DNA of 64,000 nt, taken from Chlorobiaceae bacterium (lineage in GTDB: Bacteria > Bacteroidota > Chlorobiia > Chlorobiales > Chlorobiaceae). Under the pieces are notes generated by a model. The model was given only the letters and a program-made list of their open reading frames with translations, had not been told where the DNA came from and did not search any database. Position numbers and translations under genes: made by a program. How positions within the stretch are numbered: position 1 is the first letter of the stretch; each line of letters opens with the position of its first letter. The stretch is taken from positions 1-64,000 of the forward strand of contig JAAXWS010000008.1 in assembly GCA_013334865.1 (NCBI GenBank), read 5' to 3'. Below, piece by piece: positions 2,788 through 61,804 of this stretch.

Positions 2788-3219
2788 TCATTCCGTGACG
2801 CGTATCTGCTCCTGATGGAACCCTCCCGATTCCCTGCGGAGCCACGAGGTGACCTCCCGGGGGACGCCGGTATAGAGCGAGATGATAAGCATGGAGTGGC
2901 CCGGCTTCGCGAAATCGATGTCGTGCCGTGAGGGCACGGCGGTCGAGTTGATGTGCGAGTGGTACGACCCGATGATGGAAAGCCCGAGCCCCTTCGCCTC
3001 CCGCTCGACCTCCTCATACTCCCTGAACGAGATCTCGAAGCTGGTCTCCTTGCCGAAATAGAGGTCGTTCCTGCACGGGGCTACCTCGAACACGATATTG
3101 TCGATGTTGCCGCGATGATCGACGACCTTGCGGCCGACGAGCAGGCCGCAGCATTCGTAGGGAAGCTCCTTGACAGCCTGTTCCTGGATGATTTCGAACT
3201 TTCGACGAGGTAGTTTCAT
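2788..3219 (-). CDS. JAMM/MPN-domain (Mov34/M67-like) metalloprotease
   Basis: This 143-residue single-domain protein carries the full JAMM zinc signature: Glu22, then His87-Ser-His89, seven residues, Ser97, two residues and Asp100. Bacterial JAMM proteins of this size are isopeptidases or processing peptidases, often acting on ubiquitin-like sulfur carriers (ThiS/MoaD type) or in cysteine synthesis. No sulfur-carrier gene is beside it, so the substrate is unknown. It lies between purD and carB on the same strand, 27 bp downstream of purD. The last codons overlap the style of the adjacent CGTNACG repeat (stop at 2788). Confidence 0.85.
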   Translation of the reverse strand: MKLPRRKFEIIQEQAVKELPYECCGLLVGRKVVDHRGNIDNIVFEVAPCRNDLYFGKETSFEISFREYEEVEREAKGLGLSIIGSYHSHINSTAVPSRHDIDFAKPGHSMLIISLYTGVPREVTSWLRRESGGFHQEQIRVTE

Positions 3220-3246
3220 TGCGTACTGCTCAATATGACGACTGGA

Positions 3247-4524
3247 TCAGAGGGCCTTCGCGCCGATGTCTCGCCTGAAGTACGCCCCGTCGAAATGTAT
3301 CTTTCCGACACCCTCATAGGCCCTGTCGAGCGCCGCTTTCAGGGTGCCGCCAAGGGCCGTCACCGTCAATACACGCCCACCGGCGGTGACCAGCCTGTCG
3401 CCATCCTGCTTCGTGCCGGCATGGAACACGGTCACGCCGTCGACTTCAGCCACTGACGCGTCGATGGTGATCTCCCGGCCGGATTCATAGGCATCGGGGT
3501 ATCCCGCCGAAGCCATGACCACCGTAGCGCCGGCACCGGCATGCATCTCGAACGGCACCACGGCAAGGCCGCCCTCGACGCTCGCCATGAGCGCTTCGAC
3601 GAAGTCGCTCTTCAGCAACGGAAGCACGACCTGCGTCTCGGGATCTCCGAGCCTCGCGTTGAACTCGACCACCGACGGCTCGCCGCCGTCGATCATCAGG
3701 CCGACATAGAGGAAGCCGGTGTAGGGATAGCCTTCGGCGGCCATTCCCGCGAGCGTCGGGCGGATGACCCGCTCCTCGACCAGCCCCATCACCTCAGGCG
3801 TCACCAGCGGTGCCGGGGCATAGGCGCCCATGCCGCCGGTATTCTTGCCCGTGTCGCCCTCACCGATCCGCTTGTGGTCCTGTGCGGAAAGGAAGAGCCG
3901 GTAGTCGCGACCGTCGGTCAGGGCGAACACGCTGGCCTCCTGGCCCTTGAGGAACCCTTCGATCACCACCTCGTCGGCTGCGTCGCCGAAAACCCGGTTC
4001 TCGAAGAACTCGTGGATGGCATCGAGCGCCTCCTCTCGGGTCATCGCTACAACCACGCCCTTGCCGGCGCAAAGCCCGCTGGCCTTGATGACCTGGGGAT
4101 AAGATCCGCACGACTCGAGGTAGGCCTTGGCCTCCGCGTGGCCGCGGAAGACCCGGTACTCCGCCGTGGGAATGCCCTGGCGCCGCATGAAATCCTTGGC
4201 GAACACCTTGCTGGTCTCAAGGCGCGCGGCATCGCTCGTAGGACCGACGATCCTGCGGCCGGATGCCCGGAAACGCTCCACGACCCCCAGTTCGAGCGGC
4301 TGTTCCGGCCCGACGATGGTCAGGTCGACCGACTCCCTCGAGGCGAAATCGAGCAGCGCGTCGATCTCGGCAGCCTTGATCGGCACGTTCGAAACCTTGC
4401 CGCCCATCATGGCGGTACCGCCGTTGCCCGGCGCGACGAAAATCCGCGAAACCTTTTCGCTGCGCAGCACGGCCCATGCCATGGCATGTTCCCTGGCGCC
4501 GCTGCCGATGATCAGAATGTTCAT
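3247..4524 (-). CDS. purD: Phosphoribosylamine-glycine ligase
   Basis: PurD makes glycinamide ribonucleotide from phosphoribosylamine, glycine and ATP in purine synthesis. The 425-residue length is standard. Features seen are the N-terminal MNILIIGSGAREHA, the Gly-rich APGNGGTAMMG segment, VGPEQPLELG, the ATP-grasp segment VIKASGLCAGKGVVVAM, the loop GDTGKNTGGMGAY, and VEFNARLGDPETQV, which carries the metal ligands. The upstream region is divergent from the acyltransferase gene (91 bp), so the promoter must lie in 4525-4615. Confidence 0.97.
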   Translation of the reverse strand: MNILIIGSGAREHAMAWAVLRSEKVSRIFVAPGNGGTAMMGGKVSNVPIKAAEIDALLDFASRESVDLTIVGPEQPLELGVVERFRASGRRIVGPTSDAARLETSKVFAKDFMRRQGIPTAEYRVFRGHAEAKAYLESCGSYPQVIKASGLCAGKGVVVAMTREEALDAIHEFFENRVFGDAADEVVIEGFLKGQEASVFALTDGRDYRLFLSAQDHKRIGEGDTGKNTGGMGAYAPAPLVTPEVMGLVEERVIRPTLAGMAAEGYPYTGFLYVGLMIDGGEPSVVEFNARLGDPETQVVLPLLKSDFVEALMASVEGGLAVVPFEMHAGAGATVVMASAGYPDAYESGREITIDASVAEVDGVTVFHAGTKQDGDRLVTAGGRVLTVTALGGTLKAALDRAYEGVGKIHFDGAYFRRDIGAKAL

Positions 4525-4615
4525 ATTGACGTGTGAAGCTCCGGCCTCAAATCACCCTGTGGTTTGTCGGCGTGGATTATTTAAATTGCACCCGGCTGAA
4601 TGCTGGAAGTATATA

Positions 4616-5317
4616 ATGCAGGAAGCAGCAAAAAAGCAATTAAAAAAATTCCGGCCTGAAAACCTTGAGCGCCCCCGCGGCACCGCACATTCCCTCGTGA
4701 ACACGACCCTCAGGAACATTGCCCCGGCCCTGATCGCACCGCTGCTCAGGAGCCTTTTCTCAAGCCAGCGCATCGAGCTCCGGATGCCTGGCGAAGGGTT
4801 GCCGGACAGGCGACGCGGCGTGGTGTTCGCCTTCTGGCACGGGAAGATGGCCACCGGCTGGCTGCTTGCGCGCCGACTGTTCCCGAACGCGTCCCACGCA
4901 GCCGTGGTCAGCCTGTCGAAGGACGGCCAGCTTCTTTCGGATACCCTCGGCCGGCTCGGATTCCGGCTCATCCGGGGGTCAAGCTCGAAGGGGAAGGAGG
5001 CCGTCCGGTCAGGCATCGCCGACGCGCTTCGCTCGGGGGAGGTCGTCGCCGTCACCCCCGACGGCCCGCGAGGGCCGATCAACCGCTTCAAGTACGGCAC
5101 GCTGAGGCTGGCTTCCGAAACCGGATCCCCGGTCCTCTTCGCCGACATCGCCCACGACCGGCCCCGCATCCTGAAAAGCTGGGACCGTTTCGAGATCCCG
5201 AGGCCCTTCGGCAGGGCGGTCATCACGCTGCACCTCGTCGACGTGCCCCGCTTCGACTCCGAGGAGGAACTGCAGCGCTTCGCCAACTCGCTTTCGGAGC
5301 GCTTCGCCCATGCCTGA
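4616..5317 (+). CDS. Lysophospholipid acyltransferase family protein (DUF374)
   Basis: The 233-residue protein belongs to the DUF374 branch of acyl-CoA/ACP acyltransferases. It has the FAFWHGKM active-site block (His75), SLSKDGQLL, a GSSSKGKEA segment and TPDGPRGP, the substrate-binding block typical of the family. The ATG at 4616 was chosen because the frame upstream is antisense to purD. It overlaps lpxK by 8 bp, so the two form an operon. That pairing suggests a role in lipid A or outer-membrane lipid acylation, which is inference. The protein is probably peripheral to the inner membrane. Confidence 0.85.
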   Translation: MQEAAKKQLKKFRPENLERPRGTAHSLVNTTLRNIAPALIAPLLRSLFSSQRIELRMPGEGLPDRRRGVVFAFWHGKMATGWLLARRLFPNASHAAVVSLSKDGQLLSDTLGRLGFRLIRGSSSKGKEAVRSGIADALRSGEVVAVTPDGPRGPINRFKYGTLRLASETGSPVLFADIAHDRPRILKSWDRFEIPRPFGRAVITLHLVDVPRFDSEEELQRFANSLSERFAHA

Positions 5318-6371
5318 GCGGCCGGCATCCATCCTGCTCGCACCGGCAGGGCAGATCTACGGACTCGTCATGTCGGTTCGCAATACCCTCTATGACCTGG
5401 GGATTATCAAGGCCTGGCGGGCCCCGGCGCCCGTCGTCTCGGTTGGCAACATCACCACGGGCGGCACCGGCAAGACGCCGCTGGTCGACTGGATCGTGAA
5501 GTTCTACCGTGCACACGGCAGGAGGGTCGCCATCGTCTCGAGAGGATACGGACGTCGTACGAAAGGCGCCATGCTGGTCTCAGACGGCTCGAAGATGCTG
5601 CTCGGCAGCCGCGACGCCGGTGACGAAGTCGCCATGCTCGCCGCGAGGAACCCCTCGGCGATCATCGTCGTGGCCGAGAAGCGGCAGCAAGGGGTCGAGC
5701 TGCTCATGCGCGAGTTCGCCGGCCGGATGCCAGAGGTGATCGTGCTCGACGACGCCTTCCAGCACCGGAAGATCGCCCGCGACCTCGACATCGTGGTAAT
5801 CAACGCCCAGGAGCCTTTCGGCGGCGGACGGGTGCTTCCGGCCGGCCGGCTGCGCGAACCGATACGGGGCCTCGGCCGCGCCGGAATCTTCATCCTGAGC
5901 AAGGTCGTCGATGAACGTCAGGCCGCCGGGATCGTCGGGGAGCTGAAGTCGCTGGGCAAACCGGTGGTGCTCTCCAGGATCCGTGCCGGAGAGCTCGTTT
6001 CCGTCGGCGGTAAAGGCGATATCGGGGACGGCGGCAGGACCAGGGCGCTTGCCTTCGCCGGCATCGGCGCCCCGCAGGGGTTCGTCCAGAGCCTCCGGAA
6101 TGCGGATGTCGAGGTGGTGGAGTCCCGCTTCTTCCGCGACCACCAGCCGTTCACTGTGGACTCGGTCAAGGCGATCGTCACCGATTCGAAGCGGCTCGGC
6201 CTCGTGCCGGTCACGACCGAAAAGGACTGGTTCCGCATCATCGACGACCCGGAGCTGGCCGCCATGCTCGTAGCCGCGGGCTGCCGCTACCTGCCGATAA
6301 CCCCCGACATCTATGAAGGGAGAGAAGTGCTGGAAAAAATGCTCATCGACCTGGTATCAGATCAACGGTAA
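5310..6371 (+). CDS. lpxK: Tetraacyldisaccharide 4'-kinase
   Basis: LpxK phosphorylates the lipid A disaccharide precursor at the 4' position on the inner face of the inner membrane. The protein has 353 residues. The variant Walker A, VGNITTGGTGKTP, lies at residues 45-57, followed by SRGYGRR. VIVLDDAFQHRKIARD matches the family's conserved acidic block, and PVTTEKDWFRI is the usual C-terminal motif. The start ATG overlaps the stop of the upstream acyltransferase gene. Its presence implies a lipopolysaccharide-bearing Gram-negative cell. Confidence 0.94.
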   Translation: MPERPASILLAPAGQIYGLVMSVRNTLYDLGIIKAWRAPAPVVSVGNITTGGTGKTPLVDWIVKFYRAHGRRVAIVSRGYGRRTKGAMLVSDGSKMLLGSRDAGDEVAMLAARNPSAIIVVAEKRQQGVELLMREFAGRMPEVIVLDDAFQHRKIARDLDIVVINAQEPFGGGRVLPAGRLREPIRGLGRAGIFILSKVVDERQAAGIVGELKSLGKPVVLSRIRAGELVSVGGKGDIGDGGRTRALAFAGIGAPQGFVQSLRNADVEVVESRFFRDHQPFTVDSVKAIVTDSKRLGLVPVTTEKDWFRIIDDPELAAMLVAAGCRYLPITPDIYEGREVLEKMLIDLVSDQR

Positions 6372-6420
6372 TACCTCTTGTTTCCGATATGTCATCTCGG
6401 CTGTAACCACCCCTGTCCTG

Positions 6421-6491
6421 ATCGAAATCGGCATCGATTTCGATAATTCTTGTGATATGCCCTGTTGCCTGCCATCCGATGGCAGAACAGG
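6421..6491. terminator. Two adjacent inverted repeats at the lpxK / hydrolase convergent junction
   Basis: 6421-6444 is a perfect 10-bp stem (ATCGAAATCG and CGATTTCGAT) around a 4-nt loop. 6461-6491 is a second hairpin built from CCTGTT..CTGCCATC and GATGGCAG..AACAGG. The two genes converge here, so a bidirectional terminator is likely, although there is no strong T run. The rest of the 175-bp gap shows nothing recognisable. Confidence 0.5.
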
Positions 6492-6546
6492 CCGTTGGTT
6501 GGGCTTTGACATGATAATTACCTGAAGGACGCCTGTGGCGACAGGT

Positions 6547-7089
6547 TCACTCCTTGACAATCTTCGAGATGGCCTTGAAGGTATCCCCCTCGGCCACGCG
6601 CAGGAGTTCGAAGATGGCCATCTCGGTGCTGGTGGGCACGCCGCCGGCGCGTTCGATGCAGCGGATGCCGAGCTTGCGGTTCTCCTCGCTGCGTGAAGAG
6701 ACCGCGTCGGTCACGATATGCACGTTGTAGCCGAAGTCGAGGAGTTCGATGCAGGTCTGGTAGACGCAGACATGCGCCTCCATGCCGACCACAAGGATCT
6801 CGTTGCGGCCCGTCGACCGGAGACGCCGCATGAACTCATCGCTGCCGCAGCAGCTGAACGAGAGCTTCTCGAACGGAGCCTGGTCGACAAGCAGCTCCCT
6901 CAGCGGTTCGACGGTAGGTCCCAGGCCCTTGGGGTACTGCTCCGTGTACAGCACCGGCAGTCCGAGCAGTTTGCCGGACCTGATAAGTTTGCCGATATTC
7001 TTTTCGACCAGTCCGGCATTGGAGACCACGGAGGCCAGCTTGCCCTGCACGTCGACAACCAGCAGAAGCGTATCTTTAAGAGATATCAT
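6547..7089 (-). CDS. Isochorismatase-family cysteine hydrolase
   Basis: The 180-residue cytoplasmic alpha/beta hydrolase has the family triad: Asp13 in LLLVVDVQGK, Lys75 in PFEKLSF and Cys108 in VVGMEAHVCVYQT. It ends with a typical VTDAVSSRS block and a TSTEMAIFELL tail, as in YcaC-like hydrolases. Members hydrolyse amides or isochorismate. No siderophore or nicotinamide genes are nearby, so the substrate is not known. It is a single gene convergent with lpxK. Confidence 0.88.
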   Translation of the reverse strand: MISLKDTLLLVVDVQGKLASVVSNAGLVEKNIGKLIRSGKLLGLPVLYTEQYPKGLGPTVEPLRELLVDQAPFEKLSFSCCGSDEFMRRLRSTGRNEILVVGMEAHVCVYQTCIELLDFGYNVHIVTDAVSSRSEENRKLGIRCIERAGGVPTSTEMAIFELLRVAEGDTFKAISKIVKE

Positions 7090-53654: not shown

Positions 53655-54500
53655 ATGTACAGGATTGTGTCCGCTATTTTTTTAGCTGAAAATATCAAAA
53701 AATTCGAAATAGAGGCCCCGAGGATCGCAAAAAAGCGCAGGGCCGGCCAGTTCGTGATGCTTCGCCTGTCCGAAACCGGCGAACGCTTCCCGCTGACTAT
53801 CGCCGACTCCGACCCTGAGAAGGGGACCATCACGATCATCTCGCAGGGAGCCGGCAAGTCGACCAGAGCGCTGAACCGGCTCGAGGCCGGGGAGACGATC
53901 ACCGACGTGGTCGGGCCGCTCGGAACCCCGTCGCACATCGGGAACTTCGGCACCTCGGTCAGCATCGGCGGCGGCGTCGGTACGGCCATCGCCTACCCGA
54001 CGGCCGCGGCGCTCAAGGCTGCCGGCAACTACGTCATCACGATCAACGGCGCGAGGACGAGGGAGCTGGTCATCCTCGAGGAGGAGATGAAGGCGGTCAG
54101 CGACGAAGCCTATATCACGACGGACGACGGGTCGTACGGATTCAACGGCTTCGTGACGCAGAAGCTGCAGGAGCTCATCGATTCGGGCAGGAAGATCGAT
54201 TTCGTGCTGGCCATCGGACCGATCCCGATGATGAAGGCGGTCGCCGAAGTGACCCGCCCCTACGGCATCAGGACGGTCGTCAGCCTGAACCCGATCATGA
54301 TCGACGGTACGGGAATGTGCGGGGGCTGCCGCGTGACGGTCGGCGACGAAATAAAGTTCGCCTGCGTCGACGGCCCGGAGTTCGACGCGCACCTGGTCGA
54401 TTTCAAGAACCTGGCCGACAGGAACAGGATCTACCAACACGAAGAGAAGGCATCGGACGAAGCAGAAGCCCATCGTTGCCGGCTCGCAGCGCAGAGCTGA
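53655..54500 (+). CDS. nfnA: NADH-dependent ferredoxin:NADP+ oxidoreductase, small subunit (SudB-like)
   Basis: NfnA binds FAD and a [2Fe-2S] cluster and, with NfnB, couples NADPH, NADH and ferredoxin by flavin-based bifurcation. The 281-residue protein starts MYRIVSAIFLAENIKKFEIE, has the flavin segment FPLTIADSD and the NAD-binding IGGGVGTAIAYP. The C-terminal cluster loop is GTGMCGGCRVTV followed by FACVDGPEFDAHL. The related sulfide dehydrogenase name (SudB) is used for some homologues. The nfnB gene follows 115 bp downstream. Confidence 0.92.
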   Translation: MYRIVSAIFLAENIKKFEIEAPRIAKKRRAGQFVMLRLSETGERFPLTIADSDPEKGTITIISQGAGKSTRALNRLEAGETITDVVGPLGTPSHIGNFGTSVSIGGGVGTAIAYPTAAALKAAGNYVITINGARTRELVILEEEMKAVSDEAYITTDDGSYGFNGFVTQKLQELIDSGRKIDFVLAIGPIPMMKAVAEVTRPYGIRTVVSLNPIMIDGTGMCGGCRVTVGDEIKFACVDGPEFDAHLVDFKNLADRNRIYQHEEKASDEAEAHRCRLAAQS

Positions 54501-54615: not shown

Positions 54616-56064
54616 ATGGATGCAAAGAACATAACGACCAAGGAGCGGCTTGCCATTCCCCGCCAGGTGATGCCGGCACAGGATCCCGTGCTGCGCGCGG
54701 GCAACTTCAGCGAGGTGCATCTCGGCCTGACCCCGGAACTGGCGCAGATGGAAGCGCTGCGCTGCATCCAGTGCAAGGACCCGGTGTGCGTGCAGGGCTG
54801 CCCGGTGAACATCAAGATCGACCAGTTCATCAAGCTGATCGCCGAAGGGGACTTCCTCGGCGCGGCAAGGAAGGTCAAGGAGGACAACGTGCTCCCGGCT
54901 ATCTGCGGCAGGGTATGCCCTCAGGAGGACCAGTGCGAGAAGGTGTGCGTCATCGGCAAGAAGCGCGAACCGGTAGCCATCGGCAACCTGGAGCGCTTCG
55001 TGGGCGATTACGAGCGCCTCACCGGCCAGAGGATCGTCCCCGAGATGGCGCCCCCGACCGGGAAGAATGTTGCGGTCATCGGCAGCGGCCCGGCCGGCCT
55101 GAGCTGCGCCAACGACCTTGCCCAGTACGGGCACAAGGTGGTGGTGTTCGAGGCGCTGCACGAACTCGGCGGCGTGCTGATGTACGGCATCCCCGAGTTC
55201 CGCCTGCCGAAGGAGATCGTCAGGGACGAGCTCGACGGCCTCCGGAAGATGGGCATCGAGTTCAGGACCGACGTGGTGGTCGGCAGGACCATCACCGTCG
55301 ACGAGCTGCTCGAGGAGGAGGGGTTCGACGCCGTCTTTATCGGCGTCGGCGCGGGACTGCCCTGGTTCATGGGTATACCGGGAGAAAACCTGATCGGTGT
55401 GCTTGCGGCAAACGAGTTCCTCACCAGGGTCAACCTGATGAAGGCCTGGGACTTCCCGAACAGCGATACCCCGGTGTTCGACTGCAAGGGCAAGAACGTC
55501 GCCGTCTTCGGGGGCGGGAACACCGCCATGGACGCCATCCGGACAGCCAAGCGCCTCGGCGCCGAGCACGCCTACATCGTCTACCGCCGTTCAGAGGCGG
55601 AGATGCCGGCCCGCGAGGAGGAGATCCACCACGCCCAGAAGGAGGGCATCGAATTCATGCTGCTCACCATTCCGCTCGAATTCATCGGCAACGAACAGGG
55701 CTGGCTTACCGGCGTAAAATGCCAGAAAATGGAGCTTGGCGAACCCGATGATTCCGGACGCCGCAAGCCGGTGCCCGTCGAGGGATCGGAATTCGTGGTT
55801 CCCCTCGACATGGCGGTCATCTCGATCGGCAACGGCTCCAACCCCCTGATCAAGCAGACCACCCCCGACATCGAGGTCAGCAGGAAGGATACGATCGTCG
55901 TGGATGTCAACACCATGGAGACCTCCAAGGAGATGGTCTACGCCGGCGGAGATATCGTCACCGGCGGCGCGACGGTCATCCTCGCCATGGGCGCAGGACG
56001 AAAGGCGGCGGCAGCCATCCACGAAAAGCTCAGCGGAAAGGCATCCAGTTTCAACGAGTGGTAA
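54616..56064 (+). CDS. nfnB: NADH-dependent ferredoxin:NADP+ oxidoreductase, large subunit (SudA/GltD-like)
   Basis: The 482-residue subunit has N-terminal [4Fe-4S] ligands in CIQCKDPVCVQGCPVN and CGRVCPQEDQCEKVC. GSGPAGLSCANDLAQYG is the bifurcating FAD site and GGGNTAMDAIRTAKRLG is the NADP(H) site. It ends with VVDVNTMETSKEMVYAGGD and GRKAAAAIHEKL. The family resembles the glutamate synthase small subunit, but the nfnA neighbour decides the assignment. The complex balances ferredoxin and NADPH pools in an anaerobe. Confidence 0.93.
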   Translation: MDAKNITTKERLAIPRQVMPAQDPVLRAGNFSEVHLGLTPELAQMEALRCIQCKDPVCVQGCPVNIKIDQFIKLIAEGDFLGAARKVKEDNVLPAICGRVCPQEDQCEKVCVIGKKREPVAIGNLERFVGDYERLTGQRIVPEMAPPTGKNVAVIGSGPAGLSCANDLAQYGHKVVVFEALHELGGVLMYGIPEFRLPKEIVRDELDGLRKMGIEFRTDVVVGRTITVDELLEEEGFDAVFIGVGAGLPWFMGIPGENLIGVLAANEFLTRVNLMKAWDFPNSDTPVFDCKGKNVAVFGGGNTAMDAIRTAKRLGAEHAYIVYRRSEAEMPAREEEIHHAQKEGIEFMLLTIPLEFIGNEQGWLTGVKCQKMELGEPDDSGRRKPVPVEGSEFVVPLDMAVISIGNGSNPLIKQTTPDIEVSRKDTIVVDVNTMETSKEMVYAGGDIVTGGATVILAMGAGRKAAAAIHEKLSGKASSFNEW

Positions 56065-56068
56065 GCAC

Positions 56069-56473
56069 ATGGCAGACCTCTACCGTTTCGGCATCTCCCT
56101 CGACAGGGAGCTGATCGACGCCTTCGACCGGCACATCGCCGAACAGCAGTACAAGAGCCGCTCGGAGGCGATCCGTGACCTCATCCGCGAAGAGCTGGTA
56201 CGCAAGAAATGGGCCGAGGGGGGCACGGTTGCCGGAGCCATCGTCATGACCTACGACCACCACAAGCGGGAGCTGGTCAACCGCCTGCTCGACATCCAGC
56301 ACGATTTCCACGATATCATCATCTCCACCCAGCACGTGCACCTCGACCACGGCAACTGCCTCGAGGTGATCGCCGTCAAGGGCCAGGCCCCGCAGGTTGA
56401 GCGGCTCTCCACCGCCCTCAAGGTGCTGGTCGGCGTCAAGCACCTCAACCTCAGCGTCTCGGCATCGGACTGA
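56069..56473 (+). CDS. nikR: Nickel-responsive regulator NikR
   Basis: The 134-residue protein has an N-terminal ribbon-helix-helix domain (RFGISLDRELIDAFDRHI, SRSEAIRDLIREEL). The C-terminal ACT-like nickel-binding domain has His78, His89, His91 and Cys97, matching the E. coli high-affinity ligands His76, His87, His89 and Cys95. It lies 4 bp after nfnB and would be expressed with it. The downstream transporter genes and the inverted repeat at 56500 are its likely target. The ATG at 56069 was chosen because upstream frame sequence is nfnB shadow. Confidence 0.93.
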   Translation: MADLYRFGISLDRELIDAFDRHIAEQQYKSRSEAIRDLIREELVRKKWAEGGTVAGAIVMTYDHHKRELVNRLLDIQHDFHDIIISTQHVHLDHGNCLEVIAVKGQAPQVERLSTALKVLVGVKHLNLSVSASD

Positions 56474-56499
56474 CGGAAGGCCTGTTTTCCTTGCTTTGC

Positions 56500-56528
56500 G
56501 ATAGCACGATTATTATTTTCATGCTATC
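56500..56528. promoter_or_regulatory. Candidate NikR operator
   Basis: GATAGCA at 56500-56506 and its complement TGCTATC at 56522-56528 are separated by 15 bp. That gives a 29-bp dyad, close to the 28-bp geometry of the E. coli NikR site (GTATGA-N16-TCATAC). It lies 28 bp upstream of the outer-membrane protein start at 56557 and 27 bp after the nikR stop. The half-site sequence differs from E. coli, so binding is inferred from geometry and context. Confidence 0.6.
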
Positions 56529-56556
56529 AGATACAGGACAGTCAATCCGGCCCCCC

Positions 56557-57351
56557 ATGCTGAAAAAAACCATTCCTCTCGCCATAACCGCTACACTCTG
56601 CTCAATGCCGGCCTTTGCCGCCATGCCGCTCGTCACCGACGATACGGGGACCCAGGGAAAAGGGCGTCTCCAGATCGAGTTCGGCTGGGAATCGCATCGC
56701 GACAAGAGCGTCTCTGATGGCGTCACTTCGAGGGAGACCGGCGGAAGCAGCACGGCTACCGTAAGCTACGGGATTTCCGACAGCATCGACCTCGTCGCGG
56801 GAATGCCATGGGCATGGAAGAGGAGCGAAACGGATGGAGAGGCAGCCACCGACGAACACGGCATCGCGGACCTCCCTGTGCAGCTCAAGTGGCGCCTCGT
56901 CGAAATGGAGGAGGGCAAGTTCAGCCTGGCCCTTAAGCCCGGCCTCATCCTTCCTACCGGAAACGAGGGCAAGGGGCTCGGCAACGGAAGGGTCTCGGGC
57001 GGCGTGCTGCTGATCGCGACGCACCGGGGAGCGCTCGGAGCAACACACGTCAACTTAGGCTACACCCGGAACGGGTACAGCCTCGAATCGGTCCGGAGCG
57101 CCACCAGGGCGGATATCTGGCACGCATCGCTCGCCGGGGAGCTGAACGTCGCCGACAGTCTGCGGGCAGTCGCCGACATCGGCATCGAAACCGGCAAGGC
57201 GAAGGGGAGCCCTGCCGATCCCGCATACCTGCTCGGCGGCCTGATCTACAGCCCCTCTGACCGCCTCGATCTCGATTTCGGCATCAAGGGCGCCCTGAAC
57301 GACGTCGAGACCGATACGGCACTGTTTGCCGGGGCTACCCTGCATTTCTGA
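56557..57351 (+). CDS. Putative outer-membrane transport protein near nickel/cobalt uptake genes
   Basis: From the ATG at 56557 the protein has 264 residues. It has a signal peptide (MLKKTIPLAITATLCSMPAFA), strands such as GRLQIEFGWESH and FSLALKPGLILPTGNEG, and ends in AGATLHF, as outer-membrane barrels do. The pattern resembles the phenol-degradation MetA-like/transporter family of small barrels. It lies directly after the candidate NikR site and 37 bp before cbiM, so it may carry metal or a chelate across the outer membrane (inference). Confidence 0.75.
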   Translation: MLKKTIPLAITATLCSMPAFAAMPLVTDDTGTQGKGRLQIEFGWESHRDKSVSDGVTSRETGGSSTATVSYGISDSIDLVAGMPWAWKRSETDGEAATDEHGIADLPVQLKWRLVEMEEGKFSLALKPGLILPTGNEGKGLGNGRVSGGVLLIATHRGALGATHVNLGYTRNGYSLESVRSATRADIWHASLAGELNVADSLRAVADIGIETGKAKGSPADPAYLLGGLIYSPSDRLDLDFGIKGALNDVETDTALFAGATLHF

Positions 57352-57388
57352 TCGCCCACCTCAACCGCAACCCGAGGAGAACCGGAAC

Positions 57389-58417
57389 ATGCATATGTCA
57401 GACGCGCTGCTGTCGCCGGTCGTCGGTGGCGCCCTTTGGGTGACGAGTGCAAGCCTGATCGTTCTGTCGTCGAAGAAGATCGCCGGCGAGTCCGACGGTT
57501 CGAAAACCGTGCTGATGGGAGTTCTGGGCGCGTTTGTCTTCGCCGCCCAGATGATCAATTTCACCATCCCGGGCACAGGATCCAGCGGCCATATCGGAGG
57601 CGGCTTGCTCCTGGCAGTATTGCTCGGCCCCTGGAGGGCCTTCGTCACGATCTCCTCGGTACTGGTGATCCAGGCGCTTTTCTTCGCCGACGGGGGCCTG
57701 CTCGCGCTCGGCTGCAACATCTTCAACCTGGGCTTTTTCCCGGCGTTCGTCGCACTGCCGTTCATCTACAGGCCCGTCGCGGGAAGAGGCTCTGCCGGCA
57801 GGATCGCAGCCGCCAGCATCATCGCCGCAGCAGCCGGCCTTCTTTCCGGCGCTTTCTCCGTCGTCCTGGAAACCACAGCCTCCGGAATCTCCGACCTGCC
57901 GTTCGGGACCTTCTTGCTGTTCATGCTGCCGATCCACCTTGCTATCGGCATCGTCGAAGGCCTGTTGACCTGGGGCGTCCTTTCGTTCGTCCTGAAAACC
58001 GAACCCGCCCTGCTCGACACCTTCCGGGCGGGTTCGAGTGGCAACAACCGCCCCGTCATGGCGATCTTTCTTGTCGCGGCACTGGCGACCGGAGGAGTGC
58101 TCTCATGGTTCGCCTCATCGAACCCGGACGGCCTCGAATGGTCCGTGGCGAAAGTGACCGGCAAGGAGGCGCTCCCCTCGCCTTCCGGAAGCGCACCTGC
58201 GCTCATTGGCGGAATTCAGGAGAAGCTCGCATTCATGCCCGACTACGACTTCAGGCGTGAAGCGGCAAGTCCGGCCGGACCGAAGGAGACCGGAGGACTC
58301 CCGGCCAATACGGGAACTTCGTCAGCAGGCATCCTGGGCAGCCTGATGGTGCTTGCCGTGGCTTGGACCGCCGGGATGCTGTTGCGAAGGAACCCGCACA
58401 AGTCCACGGTTCCGTGA
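57389..58417 (+). CDS. nikMN: ECF-type nickel/cobalt transporter substrate-specific subunit, CbiM/NikM fused to NikN/PDGLE domain
   Basis: The ATG at 57389, after GAGGAGA, gives a 342-residue protein starting MHMSDALLSPVVGG. The N-terminal Met-His at residues 1-2 is essential for metal binding in this family. Six or seven helices follow, with GTGSSGHIGGGLLLAVLLGP and PIHLAIGIVEGLLTWGVL. From about residue 225 a second module carries SSNPDGLEWSVAKV, the PDGLE-type domain otherwise encoded as NikN/CbiN. The MN fusion and the NikR neighbour favour nickel over cobalt. Confidence 0.92.
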   Translation: MHMSDALLSPVVGGALWVTSASLIVLSSKKIAGESDGSKTVLMGVLGAFVFAAQMINFTIPGTGSSGHIGGGLLLAVLLGPWRAFVTISSVLVIQALFFADGGLLALGCNIFNLGFFPAFVALPFIYRPVAGRGSAGRIAAASIIAAAAGLLSGAFSVVLETTASGISDLPFGTFLLFMLPIHLAIGIVEGLLTWGVLSFVLKTEPALLDTFRAGSSGNNRPVMAIFLVAALATGGVLSWFASSNPDGLEWSVAKVTGKEALPSPSGSAPALIGGIQEKLAFMPDYDFRREAASPAGPKETGGLPANTGTSSAGILGSLMVLAVAWTAGMLLRRNPHKSTVP

Positions 58418-59163
58418 GGGAATTTGAAATCAGATCTGCCACCGGCACCACGACCGCCTATCCCCTTCCGGTAAGCGACAGCACGGCGATCCTGCTCCTG
58501 GCCCTGTACATCGTCACCGTCGTTTCCGTGCCGAAGTATGACCTGCCCGGGGTGATCGCGTTCGGGGCGTTTCCCGTGCTGCTGGCGACGGCAACACGGA
58601 TGCCTCTCCCGCCGCTGCTGAAGCGCCTTGCCGCCGCATCGCCGTTCATCCTGTTCATGGCAGGGGGCAATATGCTCCTCGACCGATCCCCGGTCGCGAC
58701 CGTCGCAGGAATAACCATTTCCGGCGGAATGCTTTCGGCAGCGGTCATCACCATGAAAGCCCTTGCGACCCTCTCTTCCCTGCTATCGCTCATGTCGCTC
58801 ATGCCGTTCCACCGTTTCGGAATGGCACTGCGGAGCCTCGCTGTCCCGGAGGTTTTCGTCACCCAGCTGCTCCTGGTCTACCGCTACAGCTTCCTGCTGT
58901 CGCACGAGGCCGCCATGATGCAGAAAGCTCGCGACCTGAGGTCGTTCGGGAAAAAGGGACGTGGGGCTGACATCACGATGGGGCTGATCGGATCATTGCT
59001 TCTCAGGACCGCATCCAGGGCCGAACGGATCTATATGGCCATGTCGTCGAGAGGGTTCAGGAGCGCCTTGTCGACGAGGCCGCCGGTGCGGATCAGCTCG
59101 ATCGACCTGCTCATCGTCGCAGGATCGGCACTGCTGTTTCTTGCCATCCGTCTCATATTCTGA
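58414..59163 (+). CDS. nikQ: ECF transporter membrane subunit CbiQ/NikQ
   Basis: The 249-residue protein starts with GTG at 58414, overlapping the nikMN stop (GTGA). It has about five membrane helices. The coupling motifs for the ATPase are visible as MQKARDLRSFGKKG and RAERIYMAMSSRGF, the two A-x-x-x-R-G-type helices of the family. An in-frame ATG at 58363 lies inside nikMN and would add unconserved residues. It is the energy-coupling subunit of the ECF transporter. Confidence 0.88.
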   Translation: MREFEIRSATGTTTAYPLPVSDSTAILLLALYIVTVVSVPKYDLPGVIAFGAFPVLLATATRMPLPPLLKRLAAASPFILFMAGGNMLLDRSPVATVAGITISGGMLSAAVITMKALATLSSLLSLMSLMPFHRFGMALRSLAVPEVFVTQLLLVYRYSFLLSHEAAMMQKARDLRSFGKKGRGADITMGLIGSLLLRTASRAERIYMAMSSRGFRSALSTRPPVRISSIDLLIVAGSALLFLAIRLIF

Positions 59164-59184
59164 ATCCACGAAAAGGAGAACCTC

Positions 59185-59907
59185 TTGATCGCCATTCGAC
59201 AGCTCGCGTTCACCTACCCCGACGGTACCAGAGCGCTTGACGGCATCACGATCGATGTGCGGACAGGCGGGTCTACCGGAATAGTCGGAGCGAACGGAGC
59301 GGGCAAATCAACGCTTGTCAACCACCTGAACGGATGGTTCGTTCCTCAGGAGGGCAGCGTGACCGTCGATGGCATCGATTCCGGCAGGAAACAGATCGAG
59401 GAGGTGCGGAAACGGGTCGGCCTCGTTTTCCAGAACGCTGACGACCAGCTCTTCATGTCGAGCGTTTTGGAGGACGTGCTTTTCGGACCTGCGAACCTCG
59501 GCATGGGACGTCGGGAGGCCGAGGCGTCCGCCGAGCTGCTGCTCAGGGATTTCGGGCTCTGGGAGCTGCGCGACAAGCCGCCGGCCCACCTGTCACAGGG
59601 CCAGAAGCGCTTTGCCGCCCTGGCTGCGGTGCTCGCCATGAACCCGTCGATACTCGTGATGGACGAACCCACCTCGGACCTCGACCCGAGAAACCGGAGG
59701 AAGCTGATCAGGCTGGTCAACAGGCTCGGGGTCACGAAGGTCACGGTGTCGCACGACCTGGATTTCATATGGGATACCTGCGACGAAGTGTGCGTCATGA
59801 ACCAGGGAAAAATCGTCGCGGCCGGCCCAGCCCGCGCGCTCCTGTCCGACCAGGGGCTGCTTGAGCGGAACGGCCTGGAGCTGCCGCTGAGGCTGCAGGG
59901 GGAGTGA
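59185..59907 (+). CDS. nikO: ECF transporter ATPase CbiO/NikO
   Basis: The 240-residue ABC ATPase starts with TTG at 59185 after AAGGAG. It has Walker A GANGAGKST at about 35-43, QNADDQLFMSSV as Q-loop region, a signature written LSQGQKR in place of the usual LSGGQ, and Walker B ILVMDEPTSDLDP, and VTVSHDLDF at the H-loop. With nikMN and nikQ it completes the ECF importer. The convergent DUF1499 gene follows, separated by a CGTNACG repeat hairpin. Confidence 0.93.
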   Translation: MIAIRQLAFTYPDGTRALDGITIDVRTGGSTGIVGANGAGKSTLVNHLNGWFVPQEGSVTVDGIDSGRKQIEEVRKRVGLVFQNADDQLFMSSVLEDVLFGPANLGMGRREAEASAELLLRDFGLWELRDKPPAHLSQGQKRFAALAAVLAMNPSILVMDEPTSDLDPRNRRKLIRLVNRLGVTKVTVSHDLDFIWDTCDEVCVMNQGKIVAAGPARALLSDQGLLERNGLELPLRLQGE

Positions 59908-60580: not shown

Positions 60581-61804
60581 CTACCCGGCGGATGCCGGAG
60601 ATGGTTCGGAAGCGTCTGGCTTCGCTTCCGGCTCGGCCTTCTTGCGTGCCGGCCGGCGGGGCTTGCGCTTGGGGCGCTCCTGGGCCTCCGGGGCCGGCGC
60701 CGGTTCGGGCTCGGGATCGGGCGCAGAAGCGGCCTCGGCTGCCGCCGGCTCAGATGGAACGGGCTCCGGACGGGACGGCTTCGAGCGGGCCGGGCGGCGG
60801 CGCGGCCGTTCAGGGCGAGCTTCCGGTGCCGGTTCGGAAAGCGCCAGCTCGGCAGGCTCTGACTCGAGGCTCACCGGTTCCGCCGCCGCAGGCTCAGGCC
60901 GTTCGGGACGGACCCACACAGGCTCGGGGCGCACGGGTTCGGATGGTTCCTGCTGGGGACGCGAAAACTCATGCCCTGCCGATTCGGGGCGGGACTTCGG
61001 GAATCGGGCAGGATCGGGACGCATGGCTTCGGCGAACGTGAGCGAAGCTTCAGGCTCTACGGCCCCCTGCTCGGGCCTGCGTCCCTTTCGCTTGTCGCGG
61101 ACGTAGAGCTCCGAGTTCTTGTTACGGAACTCGAACTCGAACAGGTCAATGGAACGGACAAGGTCCGACAGGCGCTTGAAGCCATAGTTCCTCGGATCGA
61201 ACGACGCCTGGTTGGAGATATTCTTGCCGATCTTGGCCAGGTTCGACCAGCCGTCCTCCTCCTGCGCGCTGTCGACGGCGTTCCTGATCAGGGTCAGCAG
61301 CTTGCTGTCGCCCTTGAGCTCCTGGCTCGTCTTGCGCCGGCCGCCGTCGCTCTTCGACTTCTCCTGGTCGCCTACCGATTCGAGGTAGAGGAAGGTCGAG
61401 CATGCATTGACGAAGGGCGACGGCGTCGACTTCTGGCCGAAACCGTAGACGTGAAGCCCTTCGGCGAGGATGCGCATCACGAGCGGCGTGAAATCGCTGT
61501 CGCTCGACACGATGCAGAATGCGTCGAGCTTGCTGCCGTAAAGCAGGTCCATGGCATCGATGGTCATGGCCATGTCGGTGGCGTTCTTGCCCTTGGTGTA
61601 GTCGAACTGCTGGATCGGTCGGATCGCGTAATCGTGCAGTTTGTCCTCCCATCCGCTCAGCGAGCGGCTCTTCCAGTTCCCATAGGCCCGGCGTATGTTC
61701 ACCACCCCGTATTTGGCCATTTCGGCCAGAACGAAATCGATCTTGTCGCTGGGGGAGTTGTCAGCGTCGATGAGCATGGCGATAGTGTCCTTGCTTTGCT
61801 CCAT
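60581..61804 (-). CDS. NYN-domain ribonuclease-like protein with OST-HTH/LOTUS domain
   Basis: The 407-residue protein has an N-terminal NYN (PIN-like) domain. It has IAMLIDADNS (Asp13 and Asp15), TDMAMTIDAMDLLYG and FCIVSSDSDFTPLVMRI, a set of acidic residues that can bind metal for RNA cleavage. Residues about 165-235 fit an OST-HTH/LOTUS RNA-binding domain (LLTLIRNAVDSAQEEDGWSN, YGFKRLSDLVRSI). A long Pro/Glu/Arg/Ala-rich tail (about 245-407) is low complexity and probably disordered. Its RNA target is unknown. Confidence 0.85.
   Translation of the reverse strand: MEQSKDTIAMLIDADNSPSDKIDFVLAEMAKYGVVNIRRAYGNWKSRSLSGWEDKLHDYAIRPIQQFDYTKGKNATDMAMTIDAMDLLYGSKLDAFCIVSSDSDFTPLVMRILAEGLHVYGFGQKSTPSPFVNACSTFLYLESVGDQEKSKSDGGRRKTSQELKGDSKLLTLIRNAVDSAQEEDGWSNLAKIGKNISNQASFDPRNYGFKRLSDLVRSIDLFEFEFRNKNSELYVRDKRKGRRPEQGAVEPEASLTFAEAMRPDPARFPKSRPESAGHEFSRPQQEPSEPVRPEPVWVRPERPEPAAAEPVSLESEPAELALSEPAPEARPERPRRRPARSKPSRPEPVPSEPAAAEAASAPDPEPEPAPAPEAQERPKRKPRRPARKKAEPEAKPDASEPSPASAG

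Follow-up and report, generated by a model that had tools for sequence, protein, structure and literature searches.

Is an outer-membrane beta-barrel gene that lies between nikR and a nickel importer part of a nickel regulon, and could the barrel be the route by which nickel crosses the outer membrane? The question is raised by a locus in the 2.42-Mb genome of a Chlorobiaceae bacterium, a green sulfur bacterium (GenBank assembly GCA_013334865.1). We analyzed 64,000 nucleotides of this genome (contig JAAXWS010000008.1, positions 1 to 64,000, forward strand; below, the window). On the + strand of the window, nfnB, nfnA and nikR are followed by an 83-bp gap and then by the barrel gene, nikMN, nikQ and nikO. 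General porins, a few TonB receptors aside, are usually assumed to carry Ni(II), Co(II) and Fe(II) across the outer membrane. We consider it probable that the genes after the gap form a nickel-import operon repressed by NikR, and that the barrel belongs to a widespread clade of outer-membrane channels partnered with metal importers. We infer both repression and metal passage from comparisons of sequence.

We found that nikR (56069..56473, +) encodes a canonical nickel-responsive repressor, with an N-terminal ribbon-helix-helix (PF01402) and a C-terminal NikR domain (PF08753). The protein scored above the cut-off of NF003381. The positions of the nickel ligands, H78, H89, H91 and C97 (H76, H87, H89 and C95 in E. 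coli), are occupied as expected and conserved. The closest solved relative is 2BJ1 (E 1.8e-33), which we take to be NikR of P. horikoshii.

The M, N, Q and O components of an energy-coupling factor (ECF) importer are all encoded in one operon. nikMN (57389..58417, +) specifies the fused, substrate-binding S component, with matches to PF01891 (CbiM) and PF13190 (PDGLE/NikN). nikQ (58414..59163, +) specifies the T component (PF02361, CbiQ; match to the solved CbiQ 5X3X), and its GTG start overlaps the nikMN stop. nikO (59185..59907, +; TTG start) specifies the ATPase (PF00005, the ATP-binding cassette (ABC) ATPase family; TIGR04521/04520 family). NikMN begins with M-H and carries the metal motif GSSGHIGG, and its histidines align with those of the solved 4M58. 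Cobalt-type CbiM proteins of relatives have CSHPxG in place of the nickel-type SGHxGG. Judged by this motif, whose link to the metal comes from known families and from riboswitch and NikR contexts, the M subunit in the window is of the nickel type and is not a CbiM.

A [NiFe] hydrogenase is also encoded in this genome. Among family genomes that were at least 90% complete, 27 had both hydrogenase and nikR, 3 had hydrogenase only, none had nikR only and 4 had neither (Fisher p about 7.5e-4 for these 34 related genomes, which are not independent). Four complete Chlorobiaceae genomes without a [NiFe] hydrogenase (G024, G029, G033 and G036; numbers with G, L and C are our own) also had no nikR, nikMN or barrel gene.

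We found a predicted NikR operator in the gap. The sequence GATAGCACGATTATTATTTTCATGCTATC occupies positions 56500..56528 (no strand assigned), and the ATG of the barrel gene lies 29 bp further on. It has the form GATAGCA-N15-TGCTATC and is the sole exact match to this pattern in the genome. Taken from one genome, the dyad would be weak evidence, because 1% of shuffles of the 83-bp gap also gave a perfect 7-bp inverted repeat at a spacing of 13-16 bp. Conservation among relatives is what makes the case decisive. The order nikR, barrel, importer was contiguous in 24 of 37 Chlorobiaceae genomes (some of the others were cut by contig ends), and a dyad was present at a similar position in practically every orthologous Chlorobiaceae operon. 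An alignment of relatives favors writing the site as RTAGCAC-N13-RTGCTAY, 27 bp, which in the window corresponds to the core ATAGCAC-N13-ATGCTAT (56501-56527). In the collected sites, the CAC on the inner side of the first half never varied, and the TG opposite it was nearly invariant. The sites were 47 in number and picked by machine; two were poor picks, for which direct reading gives GTGTTAC-N13-GTGACAC (L057) and GTAGCAC-N13-GTAACAC (L275). By its layout, an inverted repeat of 27-28 bp that stands before nickel genes and whose half-sites are spaced by about two turns of the helix, the dyad has the geometry of a NikR operator (PMC545781, PMC5385501). The preliminary description of this DNA had proposed a dyad with NikR-like geometry between nikR and the barrel gene, and had grouped NikR, dyad, barrel and NikMN-Q-O as one nickel regulon. 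The dyad was borne out in the refined register and, as a check in relatives, before the orthologous importer genes; the grouping is supported by the conserved dyad, the canonical NikR and the synteny.

The site also accompanied operons that had been rearranged. In one relative (L064), the orthologous importer was swapped for another NikM-type importer (GSTGHAVGG motif, separate NikN), and the promoter had two copies of the site. In another (L048, genome G006, 5103-6972), the barrel gene was tandemly duplicated, with its own NikR-type dyad before each copy. Where the barrel gene was missing (L059 and L066), the site stood directly before the importer genes. In a decaying operon (L062, genome G003, 3154-5551), nikMN was cut to its first residues, nikO was split in two frames and nikQ was not found, while nikR, dyad and barrel gene were kept; this genome still has hydrogenase genes. 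Separately, genome G027 has a site of the deltaproteobacterial type about 43 bp upstream of nikMN (L057). The recognition strand of its NikR, YRFGVSL, resembles those of its neighbors; nikR lies at a distance of about 6 kb, and the barrel gene is elsewhere.

The half-site TAGCAC is shared with the controlling inverted repeat of chaperone expression (CIRCE), TTAGCACTC-N9-GAGTGCTAA, and one loose pattern matched both kinds of site in most genomes. The dyad might therefore be a CIRCE element or the site of another regulator. We regard this as extremely unlikely. The sites before the nickel genes have no inner TC/GA and have an AT-rich spacer in its place. They accompany nikR and nickel genes, and CIRCE-like sites are found in the absence of nikR as well as in its presence. 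When the relatives were searched with the exact pattern, most genomes yielded only the nik site and the CIRCE element, and genomes without nikR yielded CIRCE-like sites only, bar a rare stray match. Based on the differences in inner bases and in co-occurrence, we rejected CIRCE and its regulator HrcA as owner of the dyad and kept NikR. The CIRCE element of this genome itself is at C23:198-226 (L003/L136); it has the half-site TAGCAC, and loose searches confuse it with the NikR half-site.

Other candidate NikR targets in the genome were dropped. Matches to RTRRCAC-N13-RTGYYAY at one mismatch were at the level of the control (18 vs 22). The lone symmetric intergenic match at one mismatch (L288) precedes an RlpA-like lytic transglycosylase gene, and a match about 4 kb from the hydrogenase genes (C34) lacked both symmetry and an AT-rich spacer.

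We found that the AT-rich spacer of the dyad, TTATTATTTT, was conserved too. Its core, TTATTTTT, reached mostly 1.3-1.75 bits per column. The spacer is thus conserved more than the spacer of an operator requires, which suggests that a promoter element lies inside the operator, and the AT-rich spacer probably belongs to the promoter. No terminator was found around the dyad and no known RNA element in the operon of the window. Our results are consistent with the following model. nikR would be transcribed last in an nfn-like unit. At sufficient cytoplasmic nickel, Ni-NikR would bind the 27-bp dyad that lies 29 bp upstream of the barrel gene, cover the promoter, whose AT-rich core would be the dyad spacer, and shut off barrel-nikMN-nikQ-nikO. 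When nickel runs short, for example for the [NiFe] hydrogenase, the operon would open. The barrel would then pass nickel or a small nickel complex over the outer membrane and NikMN-Q-O would pump nickel through the inner membrane, so that barrel and importer together would serve both membrane steps. The direction of control could in principle be the opposite, as NikR of H. pylori can both activate and repress (PMC5385501). We think activation of this operon very unlikely: the operator probably overlaps the promoter core near the start codon, the operon encodes uptake, and repression by nickel is the known logic for uptake.

NikR regulons of this general kind have been described before. Geobacter and other deltaproteobacteria have NikR regulons with a fused nik(MN)QO and lineage-specific NikR motifs (PMC545781). 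The window resembles these regulons in having NikR and nikMN-Q-O, an inverted repeat of 27-28 bp before the importer and a half-site that is not the enterobacterial one. The deltaproteobacterial consensus, GTGTTAC-N13/14-GTAACAC, differs from RTAGCAC-N13-RTGCTAY in Chlorobiaceae. Four Nitrospirota loci (L228, L232, L275 and L278) have nikR just upstream of the barrel gene, with GTAGCAC and GTAACAC-like half-sites, and these GTAGCAC-N13-GTAACAC-like sites bridge the two motifs. In the passages of PMC545781 consulted, no barrel gene is described for the deltaproteobacterial regulon, in contrast to the operon in the window; a further difference is that nikR is here attached to nfn genes. The earlier suggestion of a lineage-specific NikR site, with a half-site unlike that of E. 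coli, is therefore supported, and such sites were already known, as were NikR and nik(MN)QO (PMC545781). Seen against them, the metal-partnered barrel clade is the larger result.

A second comparison is with H. pylori, in which the NikR site, TRTTA-N15-TAWTA, shares the register of TAGCA-N15-TGCTA here (PMC5385501). H. pylori NikR controls the outer-membrane beta-barrels HopV and HopW, which have been proposed as metal channels, and loss of hopV resembles a lowered cytoplasmic nickel level (PMC5385501). These non-TonB barrels are one precedent for barrels under NikR; they are Helicobacter-specific, and the description of that regulon includes no operon with an ECF importer, unlike the locus in the window (PMC5385501).

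What kind of protein is the barrel? The gene (56557..57351, +) encodes about 264 aa with a signal peptide and a single Pfam domain, PF13557 (COG4313; 66.7 bits vs a cut-off of 22, E 4e-18). An alternative upstream start of the open reading frame, TTG 56491, would take in the dyad; judged by relatives and by the signal peptide, the start is ATG 56557. The signal peptide ends AFA-AMPLVTDD, leaving A-M-P-L-V-T-D-D as the mature N-terminus. AlphaFold2 modeled the product as a beta-barrel (predicted local distance difference test score, pLDDT, 81-85), in which DSSP lists 13 strands, compared with the 12 expected of COG4313 proteins. By Foldseek, the nearest folds were those of FapF and of 4RL8, a COG4313 channel from P. 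putida, with template modeling (TM) scores of about 0.7. Sequence identity to 4RL8 was only about 16%, and a search by sequence profile gave no credible solved relative, so that 4RL8 was reached through fold comparison only. An N-terminal segment, (H/M/Y)-P-L-x-T-D-D, is nearly invariant in the barrel clade. By analogy, this segment may handle the metal within the lumen, much like the M-H start of NikM. That it sits there as in 4RL8 and touches the metal is a guess.

We found that relatives of the barrel are repeatedly encoded beside metal importers. In the genus of the window, all 32 PF13557 members found were at metal loci: 20 at nickel, 9 at cobalt and 3 at ferrous iron loci, the last arranged barrel-feoA-feoB. 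We scanned the barrel alignment against about 85,000 species and took the 80 nearest loci, which came from Chlorobiota, Nitrospirota (Thermodesulfovibrionia and Nitrospira), Nitrospinota and several deltaproteobacterial lineages. The barrel gene was directly beside a metal importer in 62 of the 80 (50 CbiM/NikM-type, 11 feoA/feoB, plus L281 with CbiM). At L227 it is flanked by HupE upstream and by cbiD downstream, and in four Chlorobium relatives (L226, L240, L260 and L282) a gene for a Cop-like heavy-metal P-type ATPase lies upstream. No metal gene was obvious in the immediate neighborhood of the remaining loci. Mapped onto a maximum-likelihood tree of 81 barrels, the labels for the partner needed 18 changes (39.5 when shuffled; minimum 3). 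The linkage is therefore not one inherited accident; as read from this tree, metal pairing is passed on within clades but originated on many occasions.

The control elements matched the metal. Ni-linked barrels lie downstream of NikR-type sites, Nitrospirota included. In 11/11 cobalt-type loci searched, a cobalamin riboswitch was upstream of the barrel gene, mostly ending within about 50 bp. Five Nitrospirota iron-type loci had a Fur box within 140 bp that matched at 16-17 of 19 positions, scores that at most 1 of 4,000 shuffles reached; in two other iron-type loci no Fur box was seen. Based on these results we lean, by a modest degree, toward the notion that this COG4313 barrel clade consists of dedicated TonB-independent outer-membrane channels for Ni, Co and Fe(II), recruited repeatedly to different inner-membrane importers under the regulator of that metal (NikR, B12 riboswitch or Fur). 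The earlier proposal of a metal or metallophore porin thus gained support from importer linkage and from metal-matched control elements in relatives.

Several observations weigh against these interpretations. A consensus scan revealed no sigma-70 promoter over the dyad, and no Fur box was seen in the three Chlorobi iron-type loci. The 80 loci are those nearest to a query alignment made mostly of metal-linked barrels, so 62/80 is no estimate for PF13557 overall. Some close relatives of the barrel, mostly in Chlorobium, adjoin a P-type ATPase, an ABC efflux operon or nothing related to metals, and three nickel-using relatives (L057, L059 and L066) have no barrel gene in the operon. The COG4313 proteins studied biochemically have been assigned to the uptake of hydrophobic molecules, and the lumen of 4RL8 is nearly closed by the N-terminus, so that hydrophilic solutes pass poorly (PMC4493636).

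The last points raise the possibility that the nickel operon and its control by NikR are right, and that the barrel is a channel for hydrophobic or amphipathic molecules placed in the operon for another reason. The characterized proteins Pput2725 (4RL8), TcpY and SphA are all tied to such compounds (PMC4493636); the barrel shares with them the Pfam family, the predicted fold and an N-terminal segment before the first strand, and the relatives in non-metal contexts fit this explanation too. We judge it improbable. Unlike those three proteins, the clade described here is tied to Ni, Co and Fe importers and has the (H/M/Y)PLxTDD motif. Repeated independent pairing with these importers is hard to explain in this way, as are NikR-type sites, B12 riboswitches and Fur boxes that match the metal; a shared non-metal substrate does not predict three different metal-specific switches. 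Also, none of the PF13557 members found in the genus of the window lies apart from metal importers.

In a variant of the channel explanation that differs in substrate only, the metal would cross through the barrel as a complex with a metallophore and not as the free ion. A narrow channel tolerant of amphipathic ligands would be well suited to a small nickel chelate, and the operon would look alike. Genes for metallophore synthesis were not seen in the operon, NikMN has the usual metal-ion ligands, and the clade serves importers of Fe(II) (FeoB), Co and Ni, for which free divalent ions are the presumed substrates. We therefore hold this variant to be rather unlikely.

The barrel also differs from the TonB-dependent nickel receptors FrpB4, FecA3, CntO and NikH (PMC11247825). 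These serve the outer-membrane step of nickel uptake, as the barrel would, and some are under NikR; H. pylori uses FrpB4 and FecA3 in addition to its Hop proteins. They are large plugged barrels, with a plug domain and about 22 strands. Pfam detected no TonB-dependent receptor domain in the barrel of about 264 aa. MnoP of Bradyrhizobium is a metal-regulated, TonB-independent outer-membrane channel for a specific metal; its metal, regulator and barrel family are others.

A literature search that covered few subscription papers gave no report of a metal role of PF13557/COG4313 and none of a COG4313 clade partnered with metal importers in several phyla. According to a review from 2021, a cobalt-specific receptor of the outer membrane had yet to be confirmed (PMC7689651). 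We consider the barrel a good candidate for the entry route of nickel, cobalt and iron that is missing at the outer membrane. If so, a small barrel family with three importers and three metal-specific switches would be a concrete entry route, and the family name (phenol degradation) would need correction. The predicted operators extend the NikR code to Chlorobiota and Nitrospirota and give a consensus usable for nickel regulon searches there.

Paralogues of the barrel gene were seen in other settings. In relatives of the genus (L168, L169 and L170), one lies directly 5' of feoA-feoB (about 5323-6631, - strand) and is a candidate outer-membrane partner of ferrous iron uptake. Another, a candidate cobalt channel, lies between a cobalamin riboswitch and cbiM-cbiQ-cbiO-cobA-cbiK (L161, 5680-7088; also L163 and L164). 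In Nitrospirota (L236 and L238), a barrel of the same clade stands amid chemotaxis-looking genes, CheA-like upstream and receptor-like downstream; a link to metal sensing is possible.

The genes upstream of nikR form a conserved nfnB-nfnA-nikR run. It opens with an nfnB-like gene (53655..54500, +) for an NAD-binding flavoprotein subunit with a DHODB-type iron-sulfur domain (NF004862, PF10418). The nfnA-like gene (54616..56064, +; GltD family, TIGR01316 above cut-off) is immediately 5' of nikR in nearly all nikR-bearing Chlorobiaceae. Its stop is 4 bp from the nikR start. The spacing is short across the genus (about 10 bp or less) and widens to about 60-140 bp in most members of the sister genus. 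Because it stays short in the genus, nikR is likely co-transcribed with the nfn genes there. Thus, of the claim that nikR is the third gene of an nfn transcription unit, gene order and close spacing held, and the shared transcript is suggested by spacing.

On the 3' side of the nickel operon, in the opposite orientation, is a gene (60581-61804, -) for a 407-aa protein with a repetitive C-terminal half rich in Pro and Glu. This protein was also found beside the swapped importer in L064.

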